From a virus: 34,199 nt of DNA. The notes under the pieces were generated by a model, which searched no databases, was not told the origin of the DNA, and was given only the letters and a program-made list of their open reading frames with translations. How positions within the stretch are numbered: the first letter of the stretch is position 1; every line of letters starts with the position of its first letter. Positions 2,366-12,061 of the stretch are shown in pieces. The translations under genes were made by a program, and so were the position numbers. The stretch covers positions 1-34,199 of IMG/VR virus record IMGVR_UViG_3300027833_000132; one strand, given 5' to 3'.

Positions 2366-3316
2366 ATGAATACAGGAACCTTTTTATCTTTACTGAAACA
2401 AATTATATCTCTATTAGAGGATGGTTCAATCTTGAACTATGGTAAGAAATTTTCAAGTCTTACTATTACCTCCTACAGACAAGTTTACAATCAAATGTCT
2501 AATTATAAGTTTAACTTCAATATAGAAAGTTTAGACCTAAACAATGTTACTAACAGAAAGGATAGACTTAAGGTCACCCGAAATTTACAGACTCATGTAA
2601 ATAAATATTTGAATATGATGTTAGACGATTGTAAACATCACAACACAAGAAAGACACATTTAAAAATTATAAGAACTACTTTAAAGAAGGCAGAGAATTA
2701 TTATGGCTATTTGTTTCCTAAGTTACAAAGCATGAGAGAGTTGCAAACAGAAGTCATTGCTTTAGATCCTAAGCAAGTTGACTTAATACATAACAACAAT
2801 CCAGGAATCGAACTCGAAGATGTATGGTATTATACAAGACTAATGCTGTATTCTTGTATGAGGGTTAGTGATTTAGTGAATTTTCAAGCCTCATCAGATG
2901 ATAGTGTGGTTACTATTATAACAAAAAAAGGAGTCGGAGCAATATCTTCTTTTTATTTACCAAAAGATGTTCGTGTATTTCTTGAGGGAAAAGGTTCTTT
3001 TGCTCATTCACAACAACATTTTAGAGTAAGACTAAAGACACTACTTAAATCATATAAAGAATTACACGAAAAGAAAATTATCTACACATATGATCATAAT
3101 GGAAATCCTATTCATGAGGAAAAGTTTTTATATGACATCATAACACCACATAAATTAAGGGCAAGTGGAATAACTTATCATCTTTCAAAAGGTTTGAGTG
3201 AGATAGAGGCACGAAATATTAGTGGTCACTCCAATGGCTCTACTGCATTTTATAGGTACGTAAAACACTCTAATACAGACTCTATAGAAAAACAAAAACA
3301 ATATTCAATCGAATAG
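2366..3316 (+). CDS. Tyrosine recombinase (316 aa)
   Basis: The C-terminal half carries the catalytic set of the tyrosine recombinase/integrase family. These are Arg166 in SCMRVSDLV, His262 and Arg265 in PHKLRASG, His288 in SGHSNGSTAF, and the probable nucleophile Tyr296 in FYRYV (Tyr298 is the alternative). Residues about 1-130 are helical, as expected for the SAM-like core-binding domain. The length is typical of XerC/XerD-type or simple phage recombinases. All catalytic positions look intact, unlike the second recombinase at 10339. It lies within the replication operon, not next to an obvious attachment site, but is bracketed by two exact GGTGTTCAACC repeats. Possible roles are genome resolution, inversion or excision of a segment, or a second integration system. 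Confidence 0.85.
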   Translation: MNTGTFLSLLKQIISLLEDGSILNYGKKFSSLTITSYRQVYNQMSNYKFNFNIESLDLNNVTNRKDRLKVTRNLQTHVNKYLNMMLDDCKHHNTRKTHLKIIRTTLKKAENYYGYLFPKLQSMRELQTEVIALDPKQVDLIHNNNPGIELEDVWYYTRLMLYSCMRVSDLVNFQASSDDSVVTIITKKGVGAISSFYLPKDVRVFLEGKGSFAHSQQHFRVRLKTLLKSYKELHEKKIIYTYDHNGNPIHEEKFLYDIITPHKLRASGITYHLSKGLSEIEARNISGHSNGSTAFYRYVKHSNTDSIEKQKQYSIE

Positions 3317-6085: not shown

Positions 6086-6696
6086 TTAGGTCAACAACTA
6101 TAATATATGAAGTATTAAGAAAACATGACCTTTCTCCTTTAGCATATATGCTGTGTGATTTAATATACAAATACACATCTATAGATGGATTTTGTGATAA
6201 AACACTTACAGATTTAGCAGAGGAATTAAACTCATCTTCTAGAACGATGAGCAGATATATAAATGAATTGACAGATAAAGGAACTCTTGAAAATATTGGA
6301 ACCAAAGCACACCCAAAATTTAGAACTACTCCTCTATGGTTTAGAGTAGCGGTTGCTGATAGCAATGAAACAATATCTCTTGAGTATCAAAAAGTATGTA
6401 GTGAAGTTATCTCATATTTAAATGAAAGATTTAAACACAAATACAATCCAAGAACTTATGAGAAAAGGTTTAAAAGCATCTTATCTAAAAAGTTTGATGG
6501 GAAGTTGATTACAGGATCACAAATGGTAGATGTGTTTGTTTGGTGTAAAGAGAATTGGAGTCAAAAGTATCAGTCCTCTGTAACACCCGAAGTAATATTT
6601 GGAAACAAATTCGTAGAGAAGTACCTAATACAATATAAAGAGTGGGAGACAATGAATAAGGTCGCCCCCAACAGAAAGAACGTAGCAATAATATGA
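6082..6696 (+). CDS. Phage replication initiator / DnaD-like helicase loader (204 aa)
   Basis: Residues about 1-85 look like a winged-helix domain (LAYMLCDLIYKYTSIDGFC, then LTDLAEELNSSSRTMSRYI as the recognition HTH). Residues about 125-190 resemble the conserved phage C-terminal domain (Phg_2220_C): VISYLNERFKHKYNP, then MVDVFVWCKENWSQKY, TPEVIFGNKFVEKYL. Proteins of this build bind origin DNA and load the replicative helicase. The gene overlaps the primase-helicase gene downstream by ATGA, which fits a loader made together with its helicase. Upstream it overlaps the small OB-fold gene in the same way. Confidence 0.7.
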   Translation: MIRSTTIIYEVLRKHDLSPLAYMLCDLIYKYTSIDGFCDKTLTDLAEELNSSSRTMSRYINELTDKGTLENIGTKAHPKFRTTPLWFRVAVADSNETISLEYQKVCSEVISYLNERFKHKYNPRTYEKRFKSILSKKFDGKLITGSQMVDVFVWCKENWSQKYQSSVTPEVIFGNKFVEKYLIQYKEWETMNKVAPNRKNVAII

Positions 6697-8417
6697 CTGA
6701 TAATTTATCTAAACTGCAAAACCTTGGCATTGAAGTCAATGGAAATAGTAACTCAGAGCCTCAAAAGACTAAATGTCCTAAATGCTCACACACAAGAAAG
6801 AAAAATAGAAATGAAAAATGCCTTAGAGTTTGGGTAGAAACAGGAACTTATTATTGTCATCATTGTGGAGACAATGGATCAGTTGCAGAATATGAGTCAG
6901 ATTATGAACTACCAAATGTAAAAGCATCTCCATTAAGCGAAAAAGTTTTAAAGTTTTTCAAAGATAGAGGTATAAACGAAAGTACAATAGAATATTTTGG
7001 AGTTACTGAAGGTCATGAATATATGCCTCAAGTTTCTGCTGAAAGACCTGTGATACAATTTAATTACATACGAAAAGGCAGAAGAATTAATATAAAATTT
7101 AGAGACTCACAGAAAAACTTTAAACTAAACAAAGGGTCTGAAATGATCATGTATGGTTTAGATTTAATAAAACCTGCTTCATGGTGTATTATAACTGAGG
7201 GAGAATTTGATGCTATGGCTTTTTATGAAGCAGGTATACAAGAAAGTAAACTTATGTTTGCTTGTTCTGTTCCAAACGGAGCATCTACAGGAAATCAAAA
7301 TTTAACATATTTAGACAATAGTATTGATGAGTTTGAAAATAAAGACAAAATATATTTGGCTTTAGATAATGACGCACCAGGAATTAAATTAAGAGATGAA
7401 TTATCGAGAAGGCTAGGAAAGGAAAGAGTCTGGTTAGTTAGTTTTCCGGAGGGATGTAAGGATGCCAATGATGTTTTGCTAAAGCATGGGTCAAAAGAAT
7501 TAGTTAACTGTATTGACAATGCAAAACCTTTTCCTTTAGAAGGGGTAAGTAAAGCATCAGATTCTCGATCTGAAATACATAACCTTTATAACTATGGAAT
7601 GCCTAAAGGTGATACCATAGGATATGAAAAGTTTGATGAATTAATGTCGTGGAGACCAAGTGAATTTACACTTGTAACAGGTGTCCCCGGTCATGGTAAA
7701 TCTAGTTTTGTTGACCAAGTAGCAATAGAACTTGCTAAGAAAGGTTGGAAGTTTGGAATATTTTCTGCTGAAAAACAACCAATAAAAGTTCATGTTGCAG
7801 AATTAATTGAAAAGTATGCAGGTAAAAGATTTGGTAAAGGTTCTGTAGATAATTTACAACCCGAAGAGTTAGACCCTGCTATTGATTTTATAAACAATCA
7901 TTTCTTTTTTATAAATCTTAAAGATAACGACTTAACAGTTGATGGGATTTTAAACAAGGGTAAGGAGTTGGTCAAGAAACTTGGGATAAACTGCTTAATT
8001 ATTGATAATTGGGCATTTGTCGAGCATAAGATTGAAAGAGGAATGAATGAGCATCAATACACAGGTATGCAATTGTCTAAGATTAAAATATTTAAAGAAT
8101 CTTATGATTGTGGTGTTGTATTAGTAGCACACCCTCAAAAACTAAAGAAGGAAAATGGGAAGGTTGAGGTCGCTTCAGGTTACAGCGTAAGTGGCTCTTC
8201 CCACTTCTTTAATAAAGTGGATAATGGCATTACCGTCTATAGAGACTTTGAAAAAGAACTTGTTGAAGTTCATATATGGAAAGTTAGATGGAGGTTCACA
8301 GGAAAGACAGGTATGCAAGAGTTTAAATACAATTTAACAACAACATGTTATACAGAACATAACGAGGATCAATATGAGACGACATCAGGGCAATTCCCGA
8401 AGTTTAGAGGACAATAG
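6693..8417 (+). CDS. Bifunctional primase-helicase (T7 gp4-like, 574 aa)
   Basis: This protein would unwind phage DNA and make primers at the fork. It has a zinc ribbon near the N terminus (Cys28/Cys31 in CPKC and Cys55/Cys58 in CHHC). A TOPRIM core follows, with ITEGEFDAMAFYEAG near residue 166 and ALDNDAPG near 225. A RecA/DnaB-type helicase domain has Walker A GVPGHGKSS near 329-338 and Walker B LIIDNWA near 434. The domain order and length match T7 gp4-like fusions. It starts on an ATGA overlap with the initiator/loader gene. Its last 44 bases overlap the next gene in another frame. Confidence 0.9.
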   Translation: MTDNLSKLQNLGIEVNGNSNSEPQKTKCPKCSHTRKKNRNEKCLRVWVETGTYYCHHCGDNGSVAEYESDYELPNVKASPLSEKVLKFFKDRGINESTIEYFGVTEGHEYMPQVSAERPVIQFNYIRKGRRINIKFRDSQKNFKLNKGSEMIMYGLDLIKPASWCIITEGEFDAMAFYEAGIQESKLMFACSVPNGASTGNQNLTYLDNSIDEFENKDKIYLALDNDAPGIKLRDELSRRLGKERVWLVSFPEGCKDANDVLLKHGSKELVNCIDNAKPFPLEGVSKASDSRSEIHNLYNYGMPKGDTIGYEKFDELMSWRPSEFTLVTGVPGHGKSSFVDQVAIELAKKGWKFGIFSAEKQPIKVHVAELIEKYAGKRFGKGSVDNLQPEELDPAIDFINNHFFFINLKDNDLTVDGILNKGKELVKKLGINCLIIDNWAFVEHKIERGMNEHQYTGMQLSKIKIFKESYDCGVVLVAHPQKLKKENGKVEVASGYSVSGSSHFFNKVDNGITVYRDFEKELVEVHIWKVRWRFTGKTGMQEFKYNLTTTCYTEHNEDQYETTSGQFPKFRGQ

Positions 8418-8697: not shown

Positions 8698-9031
8698 CAG
8701 AAACAAAGGTCACAATTACGAGAGACAACTAGTTAAGGATTTTAAAAAACTAGGATTTGAAAATTGCGTTACATCTAGATATGGTTCTAAGATGTTAGAT
8801 GACCAAGGCATTGACTTAATGAACACAGGAGACTTTGCTGTACAAGCAAAATGCTATAAGAGAAATCCACAGTATAAAAAAGTATTGGCAGACATGGTTG
8901 TTAAACCAACAGATGTCCCAATTATTTTTCATAAAGCACCAGGAGGCAAAGAATACTGCATCCTACATAAAGAAGATATGATGGAACTAATACAAATGTT
9001 GATTAGTAATAAAATTATAAATACACCATAG
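8684..9031 (+). CDS. PD-(D/E)XK nuclease, Holliday-junction-resolvase-like (115 aa)
   Basis: From ATG 8684 the protein begins MANTNRNKGHNYERQLVKDF, which is the N-terminal helix of Hjc/VRR-type resolvases with Glu13. DDQGIDLMN supplies Asp44, and FAVQAKCYKR supplies the Q-x-K pair (Gln54, Lys56) of the PD-(D/E)XK core. Small size and this layout fit a structure-specific endonuclease that cuts four-way junctions or branched DNA before packaging. The frame is open from ATG 8660, but that start would put eight non-conserved residues before the conserved helix and lengthen the overlap, so 8684 is preferred. It completes the recombination set of the operon. Confidence 0.65.
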   Translation: MANTNRNKGHNYERQLVKDFKKLGFENCVTSRYGSKMLDDQGIDLMNTGDFAVQAKCYKRNPQYKKVLADMVVKPTDVPIIFHKAPGGKEYCILHKEDMMELIQMLISNKIINTP

Positions 9032-9045
9032 GAAACTGAAAAAGT

Positions 9046-9081
9046 CCTAAAATATTTTTAGGCGAGGGGCTTCAAAACCTC
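9046..9081 (+). promoter_or_regulatory. Two hairpins in the leader of the SSB gene
   Basis: CCTAAAA-TAT-TTTTAGG (9046-9062) is a perfect 7-bp inverted repeat. It is followed at once by GAGG...CCTC (9064-9067 with 9078-9081). The 81-base gap before the SSB start ends in an AT-rich tract without a Shine-Dalgarno, normal for Bacteroidota. The hairpins may terminate upstream transcription weakly or regulate SSB expression. Confidence 0.4.
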
Positions 9082-9112
9082 TGAATATATATAACACTTT
9101 AATTATTTAATT

Positions 9113-9496
9113 ATGAGCAATTCATTAGAATTACAAGGACGTATCAAAGAAATCTCTGATGCACAAACCATTCAAACTCAAAAAGGAGACATTGAAAAAA
9201 GAGTATTAACAGTTGAATTAGGTGCTGATAGTCAGTATCCTGTGGACTATCCTGTTGAAGCAATTGGTGCTAAAGCAAACCTGTTTAGTGCATACAAAAA
9301 AGGAGACGAAGTATCAGTTTCTATTAACCTCAGAAGTTACAGAGATCGTAACGGAGAGTTAAGAACTGCTAATGCTAACGCATGGAAGATCACTTATGCA
9401 GATGGAAACATTCCAAATGGAAAGGCTAAATCTCATGAGCAAAAAGTTGAAAATTTTGTTAACGGAAAAGAAGAGGGATCTGATCTACCGTTTTAA
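9113..9496 (+). CDS. DUF3127-family single-strand-binding protein (127 aa)
   Basis: The protein begins SNSLELQGRIKEISDAQTIQ, followed by a 'KRVLTVEL' strand, YKKGDEVSVSINLRSYRDRN and ANAWKITYADG, the OB-fold pattern of DUF3127 proteins common in Bacteroidota. It ends in GSDLPF, the acidic/hydrophobic tip that SSBs use to recruit replication and repair enzymes. It would coat single-stranded phage DNA during replication and recombination. It has its own 81-base leader with two hairpins, so it may be expressed separately and strongly. The next gene starts two bases after its stop. Confidence 0.8.
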   Translation: MSNSLELQGRIKEISDAQTIQTQKGDIEKRVLTVELGADSQYPVDYPVEAIGAKANLFSAYKKGDEVSVSINLRSYRDRNGELRTANANAWKITYADGNIPNGKAKSHEQKVENFVNGKEEGSDLPF

Positions 9497-9498
9497 TA

Positions 9499-9834
9499 AT
9501 GGATACTAGAGAAAAAATTGAGAGGGTTGGTGCCGAAATCATCAGCCTTCTCATCTCTAAAAACACTGATTATGGTGATAGTGCTACATCACCTATAAAT
9601 GTTTTTAGTGAGGGCAACGCAGTGGCATCCTTATGTGCTAGAATAGATGATAAATTATCTAGAATAAAACAGAAGGGTATCTACGACAAGACTGAAGATA
9701 CTGTTAAAGATCTTACAGGCTACTTGATATTATTATTGATTGCTTTGAAAAATGAAAAACAACCAGAGATAGAAGAACAAAACAGAAACAAACCTTTTAG
9801 AGATCATTCTGGATGGTTTGAGACACGAACATAA
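9499..9834 (+). CDS. Nucleotide modification-associated domain 1 (Nmad1/DUF1599) protein
   Basis: The family signature is clear: SKNTDYGDSATSPINVF, then LCARIDDKLSRIKQKG and TEDTVKDLTGYLILLLIAL. This corresponds to the K.DYG..A...F / RI.DKl.Rl / ED...DLaGY pattern of DUF1599 (Nmad1). These small helical proteins occur in many phages and were named for their association with DNA base-modification gene clusters; the biochemical role is not settled. Placement directly after SSB fits nucleotide metabolism or DNA handling. No modifying enzyme such as a thymidylate-synthase homologue or a TET-like enzyme is seen in the window. Confidence 0.75.
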   Translation: MDTREKIERVGAEIISLLISKNTDYGDSATSPINVFSEGNAVASLCARIDDKLSRIKQKGIYDKTEDTVKDLTGYLILLLIALKNEKQPEIEEQNRNKPFRDHSGWFETRT

Positions 9835-9845
9835 AACTAAAAAAT

Positions 9846-10028
9846 ATGATTACTAAGCCAAACGCAATTGAAAGTGAAACATTCAATCATTTTAGACAGC
9901 AAGAAAACAGAATAAAAAAAGCAATTACACTATTAAAAAAAGATGGGTTCATCGTCTATAAAAGGTCAACAAAGAGTCCAAGAATTTACGATACATTGGG
10001 AATAAGCAAACTTATTAAAACAAAATAA
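9846..10028 (+). CDS. Hypothetical small basic protein (60 aa)
   Basis: The protein has a helical first half (FNHFRQQENRIKKAITLLKK) and a basic second half (DGFIVYKRSTKSPRIYDTLG) that looks like the wing of a winged-helix DNA-binding domain. It is the last clear gene of the early operon before the structured intergenic region and integrase. A regulator or excisionase-like role would suit both its size and its place but is not shown by a family motif. Confidence 0.5.
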   Translation: MITKPNAIESETFNHFRQQENRIKKAITLLKKDGFIVYKRSTKSPRIYDTLGISKLIKTK

Positions 10029-10063
10029 TAGTATGTCTGACAAAGTTATTCACAATAAAAACA

Positions 10064-10083
10064 AGGGACTAAATTGGGGACCA
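10064..10083 (+). repeat. GGGAC-type direct repeat, left copy
   Basis: The sequence has the form AGGGAC-T-AAATT-G-GGGAC-CA, that is, two GGGAC boxes 12 bases apart around AAATT. It matches 10320-10339 at 17 of 20 positions; the three differences are all transitions. It is a candidate arm-binding site for the integrase or one end of an attachment-type repeat. Confidence 0.6.
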
Positions 10084-10157
10084 ATTGATATTATTTGCAG
10101 TTTTAAATAATGTGTTTTATATCTGTTTTACAGGTTAAAATTAAAAAAAAATCAAGT

Positions 10158-10201
10158 TATCCCACGGGTATCCCAAGGGTATCCCATGGGTATCCCAGGG
10201 G
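10158..10201 (+). repeat. Four tandem 11-bp repeats TATCCCANGGG
   Basis: Four units follow each other without gap at 10158, 10169, 10180 and 10191. Ten of the 11 positions are invariant; position 8 reads C, A, T, G in the four units, so every base occurs once. CCCANGGG is dyadic around the variable base and GGGTATCCC nearly so, so the block is also a ladder of small inverted repeats. The 11-bp period places each unit on nearly the same helix face, as for a protein-binding iteron. It is strikingly GC-rich in an AT-rich setting and lies 138 bases before the integrase start. Confidence 0.9.
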
Positions 10202-10250
10202 CATTAAATCTCGCTTTTATTACAATAACTTCGTCCTAATGTTAATAACG

Positions 10251-10285
10251 TTTCCTCTGATTTTATGTGTTTGTGCATAACTTTG
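10251..10285 (+). promoter_or_regulatory. Candidate Bacteroidota-type promoter for the integrase
   Basis: TAACTTTG at 10278-10285 exactly matches the Bacteroidota -7 element TAnnTTTG. TTTC at 10251-10254 is one base from the -33 element TTTG, with a 23-base spacer, at the long end of the usual range. The integrase ATG lies about 50 bases downstream. This would allow integrase to be made independently of the early operon. Confidence 0.4.
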
Positions 10286-10319
10286 TATGAAACCACCTAA
10301 AAATAGTAAATAATATTTT

Positions 10320-10339
10320 AGGGACCAAATTAGGGACTA
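10320..10339 (+). repeat. GGGAC-type direct repeat, right copy at the integrase start
   Basis: The form AGGGAC-C-AAATT-A-GGGAC-TA repeats 10064-10083 with three transitions. The last base is the A of the integrase ATG, so a protein bound here would cover the translation start region and could repress integrase. Paired GGGAC boxes just upstream of integrase genes are, from memory, seen in other Bacteroidota elements. Confidence 0.6.
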
Positions 10340-11610
10340 TGGCTTTATCAATTGGAATAAGAAACGAAACTAATAAAGATGGAACTACACTATTACATGT
10401 TCGTTTTAAAAATAAACAGTTTGATAAAAAGATTTACACTCAAATAAAAGTATTAAAAAAACATTGGGATATAAAGAACAAAAGACTGAAACGTAACCAT
10501 CCCTTTTTTGAATTAAAAAACAAAGAAATAAGAGATCTAAATAATATTGTTGAAGATCTCTATATTCAAAGTGTTGTGTCTGCATTATCGTTTGAAGAAG
10601 CGAGAACTAGATTAACTAGTGGTTCTTATGTAAATAATATTGACTCTTACTTAGATCGTTATCTTAAAAGTCAAATGAAGGAAACAACCTTCTCTACTTA
10701 CAAAGGTAAAATGAGGTCGATTGCATTTAATTTTGGTATTAAAAACTTGACGTTTGAAGATATATGCAATAAAAATAATTGGTTAAAACTTAAGCAATTA
10801 CTTAATGAAAAAGGCAGAAGTCCACAAACATTTAATTCTTATAAGAAGGCTGCTAAAGGGGTTCATGGACATGCAGTAAAAGATGAAATTACTTATACTG
10901 TTTTTCCACACGTAAGAACTAATACTATAAATAATTACACCCCACAATGGATTAGATCAGACGAGTTGATTGAAGTCATTAATAATTTAGATACTGAAGA
11001 TAGAATGTTTAAAAACAACGGACTATGTATTTTAATTTATTTAATGATGTTCTCAATGAGAGGAATGTATTCAAAGGATATCGAAAAACTATCAATGAAA
11101 TCATTTGTGAATTCTACATACGACAACACATCAGAATTTAAGTTTGGGGAAAATAATATGGTTTACAAGCACTTTAGATCAAAAACTAATAAAATGGGTT
11201 TAGTATACATGGGATTAAATCCAATAAAAGACATAATAAAGTCAATAAACTACATCATTAATCCAGAGGTTAAATCTATTTTTCCTGTTGGAGGAGGTGA
11301 TAGTGTTATGAATTTTTTCTGGAAGTCTGAAGCAAGAAGGTTTAAAAAACTTACTAATCACAATTACAAATCAGCAAGAAAAGCATTTAATACAACAGCA
11401 TCTATACTTAGCGTTCCCGATGCTGATATTAGAGAACTTATGTTTCAAGGTGATAACACCATTTCAAAACATTACAAGGATACTCAAGCACCACTGATGT
11501 TAGAAAAGTATACAAAGTTCCACTCCGATATTTTAAAAAAATACAGAGTTTCTGAAATATTTACAATGTTAATTGATAAACTAAATAAAAACGGTATTGC
11601 TACTTCTTGA
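10339..11610 (+). CDS. int: Phage integrase (tyrosine recombinase, 423 aa)
   Basis: The layout matches the long integrases of Bacteroidota elements. Residues about 1-90 form an arm-DNA-binding-type domain (SIGIRNETNKDGTTLLHVRF, then KKHWDIKNKRLKRNHP). Residues about 105-190 form a SAM-like core-binding domain (YLKSQMKETTFSTYKGKMR). The catalytic domain has Arg241 in FSMRGMYSKDI, a lysine strand FRSKTNKMGLVYM, Arg347 in NYKSARKAF, and Tyr379 in SKHYKD as nucleophile. Two usually conserved histidines appear replaced: HxxR reads KSAR (Lys344) and the GH box reads GD (Asp372). The arm domain and the repeat-rich DNA just upstream make this the likely prophage integrase. The gene's end overlaps the convergent holin gene by 11 bases. 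Confidence 0.8.
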   Translation: MALSIGIRNETNKDGTTLLHVRFKNKQFDKKIYTQIKVLKKHWDIKNKRLKRNHPFFELKNKEIRDLNNIVEDLYIQSVVSALSFEEARTRLTSGSYVNNIDSYLDRYLKSQMKETTFSTYKGKMRSIAFNFGIKNLTFEDICNKNNWLKLKQLLNEKGRSPQTFNSYKKAAKGVHGHAVKDEITYTVFPHVRTNTINNYTPQWIRSDELIEVINNLDTEDRMFKNNGLCILIYLMMFSMRGMYSKDIEKLSMKSFVNSTYDNTSEFKFGENNMVYKHFRSKTNKMGLVYMGLNPIKDIIKSINYIINPEVKSIFPVGGGDSVMNFFWKSEARRFKKLTNHNYKSARKAFNTTASILSVPDADIRELMFQGDNTISKHYKDTQAPLMLEKYTKFHSDILKKYRVSEIFTMLIDKLNKNGIATS

Positions 11611-12061
11611 TTGAGTTATACTTTTCAAAACCTCTACTTCCAAAATATGCTACATAAATTGTAACTAAAAGTGTCTTTAAAAGTTCTACCCAACTTTCGT
11701 CAATTTCAAATGCAATATTTAAACTGTCTAGGATGATGTATAAAGACGTAATAACTGTTAAATAAATCAATGTCAAAGGACGTGTGTTTTTCGACAGCCA
11801 TGAGTCTGATTTCATATCTGAGTCCCATCTTTTACTAACTTCTTGTAATTCTATTTGATCCAATTCTAAAAGTTTTAGTGCTTTTTCTTTATCTTCTGGA
11901 GGTAGTATCTTAGGGTCTTCCTTATCAATTAAGTTTTTTACAATACCCAAAACTCCAGAACTAGGCAATAAATCACCTACGACATCTGCAATTTTTGATC
12001 CGCTTCCAAGTAAGAACTTCCCTACTTTAGTGTCTTTAAATTTCTTTTTTGGTTTACTCAT
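11600..12061 (-). CDS. Holin-like membrane protein (153 aa)
   Basis: The soluble N-terminal 85 residues include KFLLGSGSKIADVVGDLLP and a long helix (DKEKALKLLELDQIELQEV). They are followed by DSWLSKNTRPLTLIYLTV and two hydrophobic segments, LTLIYLTVITSLYIILDSL and LLKTLLVTIYVAYFG, then a basic tail GFEKYNSIKK. This W..K..RP plus membrane-pair pattern resembles the 3-TM holin family first described for gene-transfer-agent release (PF11351). A holin would open the inner membrane so the neighbouring amidase reaches peptidoglycan. It is the last gene of the late operon, overlapping the upstream small gene by 8 bases and the convergent integrase gene by 11. Confidence 0.65.
   Translation of the reverse strand: MSKPKKKFKDTKVGKFLLGSGSKIADVVGDLLPSSGVLGIVKNLIDKEDPKILPPEDKEKALKLLELDQIELQEVSKRWDSDMKSDSWLSKNTRPLTLIYLTVITSLYIILDSLNIAFEIDESWVELLKTLLVTIYVAYFGSRGFEKYNSIKK

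Follow-up and report, generated by a model that had tools for sequence, protein, structure and literature searches.

Four tandem 11-bp units upstream of the integrase gene of this marine phage differ from one another at a single position, occupied by C, A, T and G in turn, and the same four bases fill this position, in permuted order, in every related array that we found. Our leading reading, held tentatively and at slightly less than an even chance, is that the array provides one direct-repeat site per helix turn for an attP protein that binds cooperatively, most likely an excisionase or recombination directionality factor (RDF), and that four different bases at the variable position have been favoured for stability. 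We infer the attP identity of the region, the nature of the binder and the selection for stability. RDF arrays in attP are of a known kind; the rule that all four bases are present is the unexplained part.

The array and its conservation among relatives

The window (the whole stretch of DNA analysed, 34,199 bp in length) is probably a fragment, because a relative with the same gene order measures 62.6 kb. The array, four copies of TATCCCANGGG, occupies positions 10158-10201 on the + strand, with N being C, A, T and G from left to right. Its units, all on the + strand, start at 10158 (TATCCCACGGG), 10169 (TATCCCAAGGG), 10180 (TATCCCATGGG) and 10191 (TATCCCAGGGG), so that the sequence and coordinates given in an earlier note on this DNA are exact. 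No further exact copies of the unit were found elsewhere in the 34,199-bp record. The early operon lies on one side of the array (its last small ORF at 9846-10028) and the integrase gene (int, 10339-11610, + strand) on the other. The earlier note had placed N at the dyad centre of the unit, but CCCANGGG is a true dyad solely when N is T, and the site is asymmetric. Inversion of a unit, by which CCCANGGG would become CCCNTGGG, was never observed. A coding role was also rejected: an ORF (10110-10280) spans the array, but the same frame hits a stop within 12 codons in one related contig (L007) and is without an ATG in another (L009).

An integrase search identified seven other viral contigs (L005-L011) whose integrases are 90-100% identical, and exactly four units stand in the equivalent place in all seven. 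The order of bases at N is CATG in the window and L011, CGTA in L005, and CTAG in L006, L007/L008 and L009/L010; L007 and L008 are identical to each other in the array region, as are L009 and L010. Every distinct related array contains all four bases at N, in three orders in total, and the claim that N covers all four bases is therefore true of every relative found. The ten strictly fixed positions described earlier hold within the window but not beyond it, since across the related arrays the invariant part is TCCCA-N-GG and positions 2 and 11 vary slightly as well. Viral scans with the array pattern and with the neighbouring conserved block returned no extra members of the clade and no exceptions to the rule.

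A single random array has a 9.4% chance of carrying four different bases, and the window array was picked for its four different bases, so the probability has to be conditioned on it. The strength of the observation therefore comes from the relatives. We simulated neutral change at four free positions along a hand-scaled tree based on integrase distances, with the window array given as all-different; the chance that all other arrays would be all-different, with at least three orders, was at most ~4e-4 at every rate tried. If short tracts have been exchanged the tree is invalid, and a conservative figure is then 0.094 squared, or ~0.01, for two further independent orders. The logic of the earlier note, in which a binding protein ignores one base, does not account for the fact that no base ever recurs among the four units.

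That note had also regarded relatives without the array, or with variation at all positions, as evidence against a protein-binding site. Close relatives keep the array strictly, whereas it is absent from more distant ones (integrase 56-68% identical). The array is dispensable for this phage type, because all early genes but ORF 85-267 have counterparts in some array-less relatives. All four array-bearing records that extend this far contain the ORF, which encodes an acidic product of 60 aa; it was not found in the array-less ones, which may be coincidence.

An attP-like region around the array

Paired GGGACYAAATTNGGGACY repeats occur in the window solely at 10065-10082 (GGGACTAAATTGGGGACC, + strand) and 10321-10338 (GGGACCAAATTAGGGACT, + strand), with 0 expected in shuffled sequence. 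The former would be the left (P-like) pair of arm-type repeats, kept in array-bearing and array-less relatives, and the latter, directly before the int ATG, the right (P'-like) pair. Between them, at 10222-10249 on the + strand, lies a core-like block, ACAATAACTTCGTCCTAATGTTAATAAC, with imperfect inverted half-sites round a short centre, which we propose as the attP crossover core. This block is present with few mismatches in 13 of the 14 related records searched, array-less ones included. Array-less relatives (the group with 56-68% integrase identity) retain the flanking repeats as well, some of them degenerate, and among all array-bearing relatives the distance between array and core-like block does not vary. 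We infer from architecture only that the region is an attP, with arm sites, core and arm sites in that order and the array in the left arm. The array itself was rejected as the crossover core, as the core-like block persists where the array is absent.

Other features of the region include an A9 tract adjoining the array (10143-10151, + strand), which is A-rich in most relatives and not strictly kept, and a 16-nt inverted repeat. The left arm of the latter, ACAAAGTTATTCACAA (10040-10055, + strand), contains TTATTCACA, the DnaA-box consensus, and its right arm (10271-10286, - strand; TTGTGCATAACTTTGT on the + strand) contains TTATGCACA on the - strand. The -7 element of Bacteroidetes promoters has the consensus TAnnTTTG. 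A match to it, TAACTTTG (10278-10285, + strand), is likely the int promoter, and a second, imperfect match, TAACTTCG, is found at 10226-10233 on the + strand.

The product of int appears to be a divergent tyrosine recombinase with an arm-DNA-binding domain. It matches Arm-DNA-bind_5 (PF17293, 2.8e-6) and the PHROG 1 integrases (6.6e-6), and no Pfam catalytic domain matched at E 0.001. Its AlphaFold model is of low confidence (mean pLDDT 68), and the best structural matches of this model are lambda Int, XerA and Tn1549 Int; the fold match to lambda Int has a probability of 1.00 but an E of 1.4e-3 and comes from a poor model. Searches of the integrase against solved structures gave no sequence match, and searches of the integrase region against known phages gave no DNA or protein match. 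In our reading of the alignment, the usual HxxR motif is seemingly KxxR (K344, R347), the H/W position is Q or D, and Y379 is the likely nucleophile. A second tyrosine-recombinase-like gene (2366-3316; PHROG 1, 2e-13), in which no arm-binding domain was recognised, is found in every related record that extends over its position.

The phage group with this integrase probably infects Bacteroidetes. Neither one scan of 84,980 genomes nor a search of 396 genomes from one phylum yielded an integrated prophage, both being run without a positive control; we took this phylum to be Bacteroidota from the seed locus, a Paludibacteraceae metagenome-assembled genome (MAG).

A candidate excisionase array

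RDF sites usually take the form of direct repeats spaced by one helix turn. Excisionases occupy such repeats cooperatively in a head-to-tail arrangement, and they bend the attachment site (PMC7498355). The array has the same arrangement, with four units at 11-bp spacing. We propose that its four sites, lying between the putative left arm sites of the integrase and the proposed crossover core, would be occupied cooperatively and head to tail by a protein that would read TCCCA and GG and ignore position 8. The likeliest binder would be an RDF, which by bending the P arm would favour excision; positioned near the int promoter, the same factor may repress int as well. Repression by an RDF of an int promoter overlapping the att region is known for TorI of KplE1 (PMC2951348). 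The comparative data agree with the view of the earlier note that this is a protein-binding array which has an 11-bp helical period and leaves one base unread. Among the three functions which that note had left open, the excisionase site is the best supported, given the position of the array upstream of int, with arm-like repeats on one side and the conserved core-like block on the other; an int operator is possible and overlaps with it, and an iteron origin is weaker.

Several known systems resemble the array in part. In attP of phage 186, five Apl operators are found at 10-11 bp spacing, presumably with one monomer per operator, and these operators, like the Cox sites of P2 and WPhi, are direct repeats one helix turn apart that lie by integrase arm and core sites (PMC7498355). 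However, Apl operators are 6 bp long and loosely conserved, whereas here seven of the eight bases of the core never change and the remaining one takes a different letter in each unit. The X1-X1.5-X2 sites of lambda Xis likewise stand in tandem in attP at intervals of one DNA turn, with head-to-tail binding (cited in PMC7498355), but they are three sites of unequal sequence rather than four near-perfect GC-rich units. The attP region bound by RdfS of ICEMlSym R7A is similar in size to the array, ~40 bp being covered by a tetramer with one molecule per 10 bp (PMC11963761), although RdfS has no consensus motif and the array has a strict one. That the array is far more uniform than typical RDF operators argues against the RDF reading.

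None of the small early proteins matched an RDF family, and neither an RDF gene nor an Apl- or Cox-like gene was recognised in the phage. The 60-aa product of 9846-10028, which the earlier note had listed among possible binders, was rejected as an obligatory one, since three contigs (L006-L008) keep the array without it. The finding also draws attention to an attP-like region that carries an accessory array, in a group of phages with integrases, probably infecting Bacteroidetes, for which we recognised no excisionase.

Why the four units are all different

As a rule, protein-binding sites that stand in tandem are either degenerate or liable to slip. The relatives keep exactly four near-perfect units, with one base never repeated within an array. 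Under the proposed excisionase reading, identical 11-bp units would slip and the number of sites would change, and variants with an all-different free base would be favoured. With four letters, a mutually distinct set would contain at most four units, in agreement with the constant unit count of these arrays. All-different units limit exact direct repeats to 7-10 bp, versus up to 33 bp otherwise. In unrelated phages in which N is only C or T, exact direct repeats reach 19-66 bp and the arrays have 3-14 units, and these repeat lengths and unit counts support the stability idea. However, on the backbones of L009 and L011 about half of the assignments that are not all-different also keep repeats to 10 bp or less, and stability alone does not force the rule in these two, because other differences already limit the repeats there. 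If there is selection for non-identity, the array would be a natural example of a genome that stabilises a tandem repeat via the sole base its binding protein leaves unread, and limits on copy number would be predicted for other operator arrays.

A different account of the rule, which we consider rather unlikely, is that four different bases are required for the site to work, either because they are read as four distinct sites or because the phages actively reorder the units; the letters are permuted and never repeated.

Other explanations for the array

It is possible, though in our estimate somewhat unlikely, that the array is an operator on whose four sites a phage repressor or activator controls int at its promoter, or controls transcription reading through from the early operon, with no role in recombination. 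The array is flanked by the early operon and int, and its end is ~24 bp before TAACTTCG and ~76 bp before TAACTTTG; in unrelated marine phages, moreover, the motif is found on one strand only and often just past stop codons, like the stoperators of cluster A mycobacteriophages (PMC9283540). Stoperators (L5, TipsytheTRex) are asymmetric and have a fixed orientation to transcription, and it is the single motif copies in those marine phages that they resemble. They are, however, 13-mers dispersed genome-wide as many co-oriented intergenic sites, whereas the window motif is confined to one place as one array of four tandem units. The position within arm-like repeats suggests recombination instead, and no repressor gene was recognised in the phage.

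We regard it as doubtful that the array is a set of iterons in a replication origin, acting with the TTATNCACA boxes that a DnaA-domain-IV-like protein would bind. The phage does encode such a protein, as a stand-alone domain (Bac_DnaA_C, 1438-2022, 6.6e-9), the sole two copies of TTATNCACA in 34 kb (10046-10054 on the + strand, 10272-10280 on the - strand) flank the attP-like region in inverted orientation, and TATCC is common to the unit and the DnaA box TTATCCACA. However, two matches are no more than expected by chance for the window, and the unit and the DnaA box differ in their 3' part. The protein also fails to follow the array: array-less relatives have the same DnaA-like protein, with its NHASV recognition helix unchanged in most, and none was found in the partial records of other array-bearing phages. 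An initiator that co-occurs and co-varies with the array is therefore not seen, and binding tied to the DnaA-like protein was rejected.

Active shuffling, in which a recombinase or template switching reorders the units and the set of bases is kept by the mechanism and not by selection, seems improbable. What speaks for it is L005, which is 99.4% identical to the window over 9803-12061 (0.6% of positions differ) and yet has six differences packed into 79 bp (10142-10220), three of them inside the array, where they exchange A and G between units 2 and 4; the phage also has two tyrosine recombinases. However, this cluster is sufficiently explained by a short tract imported from another relative, since L005 is mosaic elsewhere too. 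Variation at positions 2 and 11 shows no sign that whole units have moved, and known recombinase sites are longer than an 11-bp unit. Mosaic blocks are found at 6500-8000 and 9000-9500 of the window, where divergence from L005 is far higher in otherwise near-identical phages, a sign of recent recombination.

We consider it very improbable that the array acts as an RNA or single-strand structure (a terminator, an attenuator or a hairpin) with N as a loop or pairing base. CCC and GGG runs are able to pair between units and a T-rich tract follows on the - strand, but fold z-scores are only -1.7 to -2.1, and the folding energy of the observed base sets is nothing special, being average for the 256 possible sets. 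There was no Rfam match and no terminator call at the array, and an intrinsic terminator or structured RNA, which would show a stable hairpin with a T run or belong to a known RNA family, was rejected. A mobile or slippage-made repeat that is functionless is equally improbable: the array is missing in more distant relatives and similar arrays exist in unrelated phages, but the number of units is strictly four in 7/7 relatives, TCCCA and GG do not vary, and neutral change would not easily produce the all-different rule.

Similar motifs in other genomes

A loosened three-unit pattern matched 36 stretches in the viral collection, and the same pattern reversed matched 1, which places the array well outside what chance would give; in bacterial genomes the array pattern gave only 4 matches, all unrelated. 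Arrays of this type are therefore concentrated in phages. Among the viral examples are TATCCCAYGGC arrays in marine phage contigs related to HMO-2011 and CRP-235, a relationship judged by one gene. Like the window array they have an 11-bp period and a near-identical unit; they differ in having 3-14 units, in lying at another genome position and in carrying only C (77 cases) or T (64 cases) at N, whereas the window array has four units and all four bases. No PF00589 integrase was found in the contigs with these arrays. Contigs L013-L045, which belong to this group, carry tandem TATCCCAYGG arrays together with single copies, on one strand per contig, and the copies often lie 5-30 nt past stop codons; they may represent a stoperator-like system or an RNA element. 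Finally, short arrays of the TTTCCCANGG type with an 11-bp period are present in Paludibacteraceae, Blastocatellia and Oscillospiraceae MAGs (L073, L074 and L075), one of them near an HNH gene, and may be unrelated or convergent.
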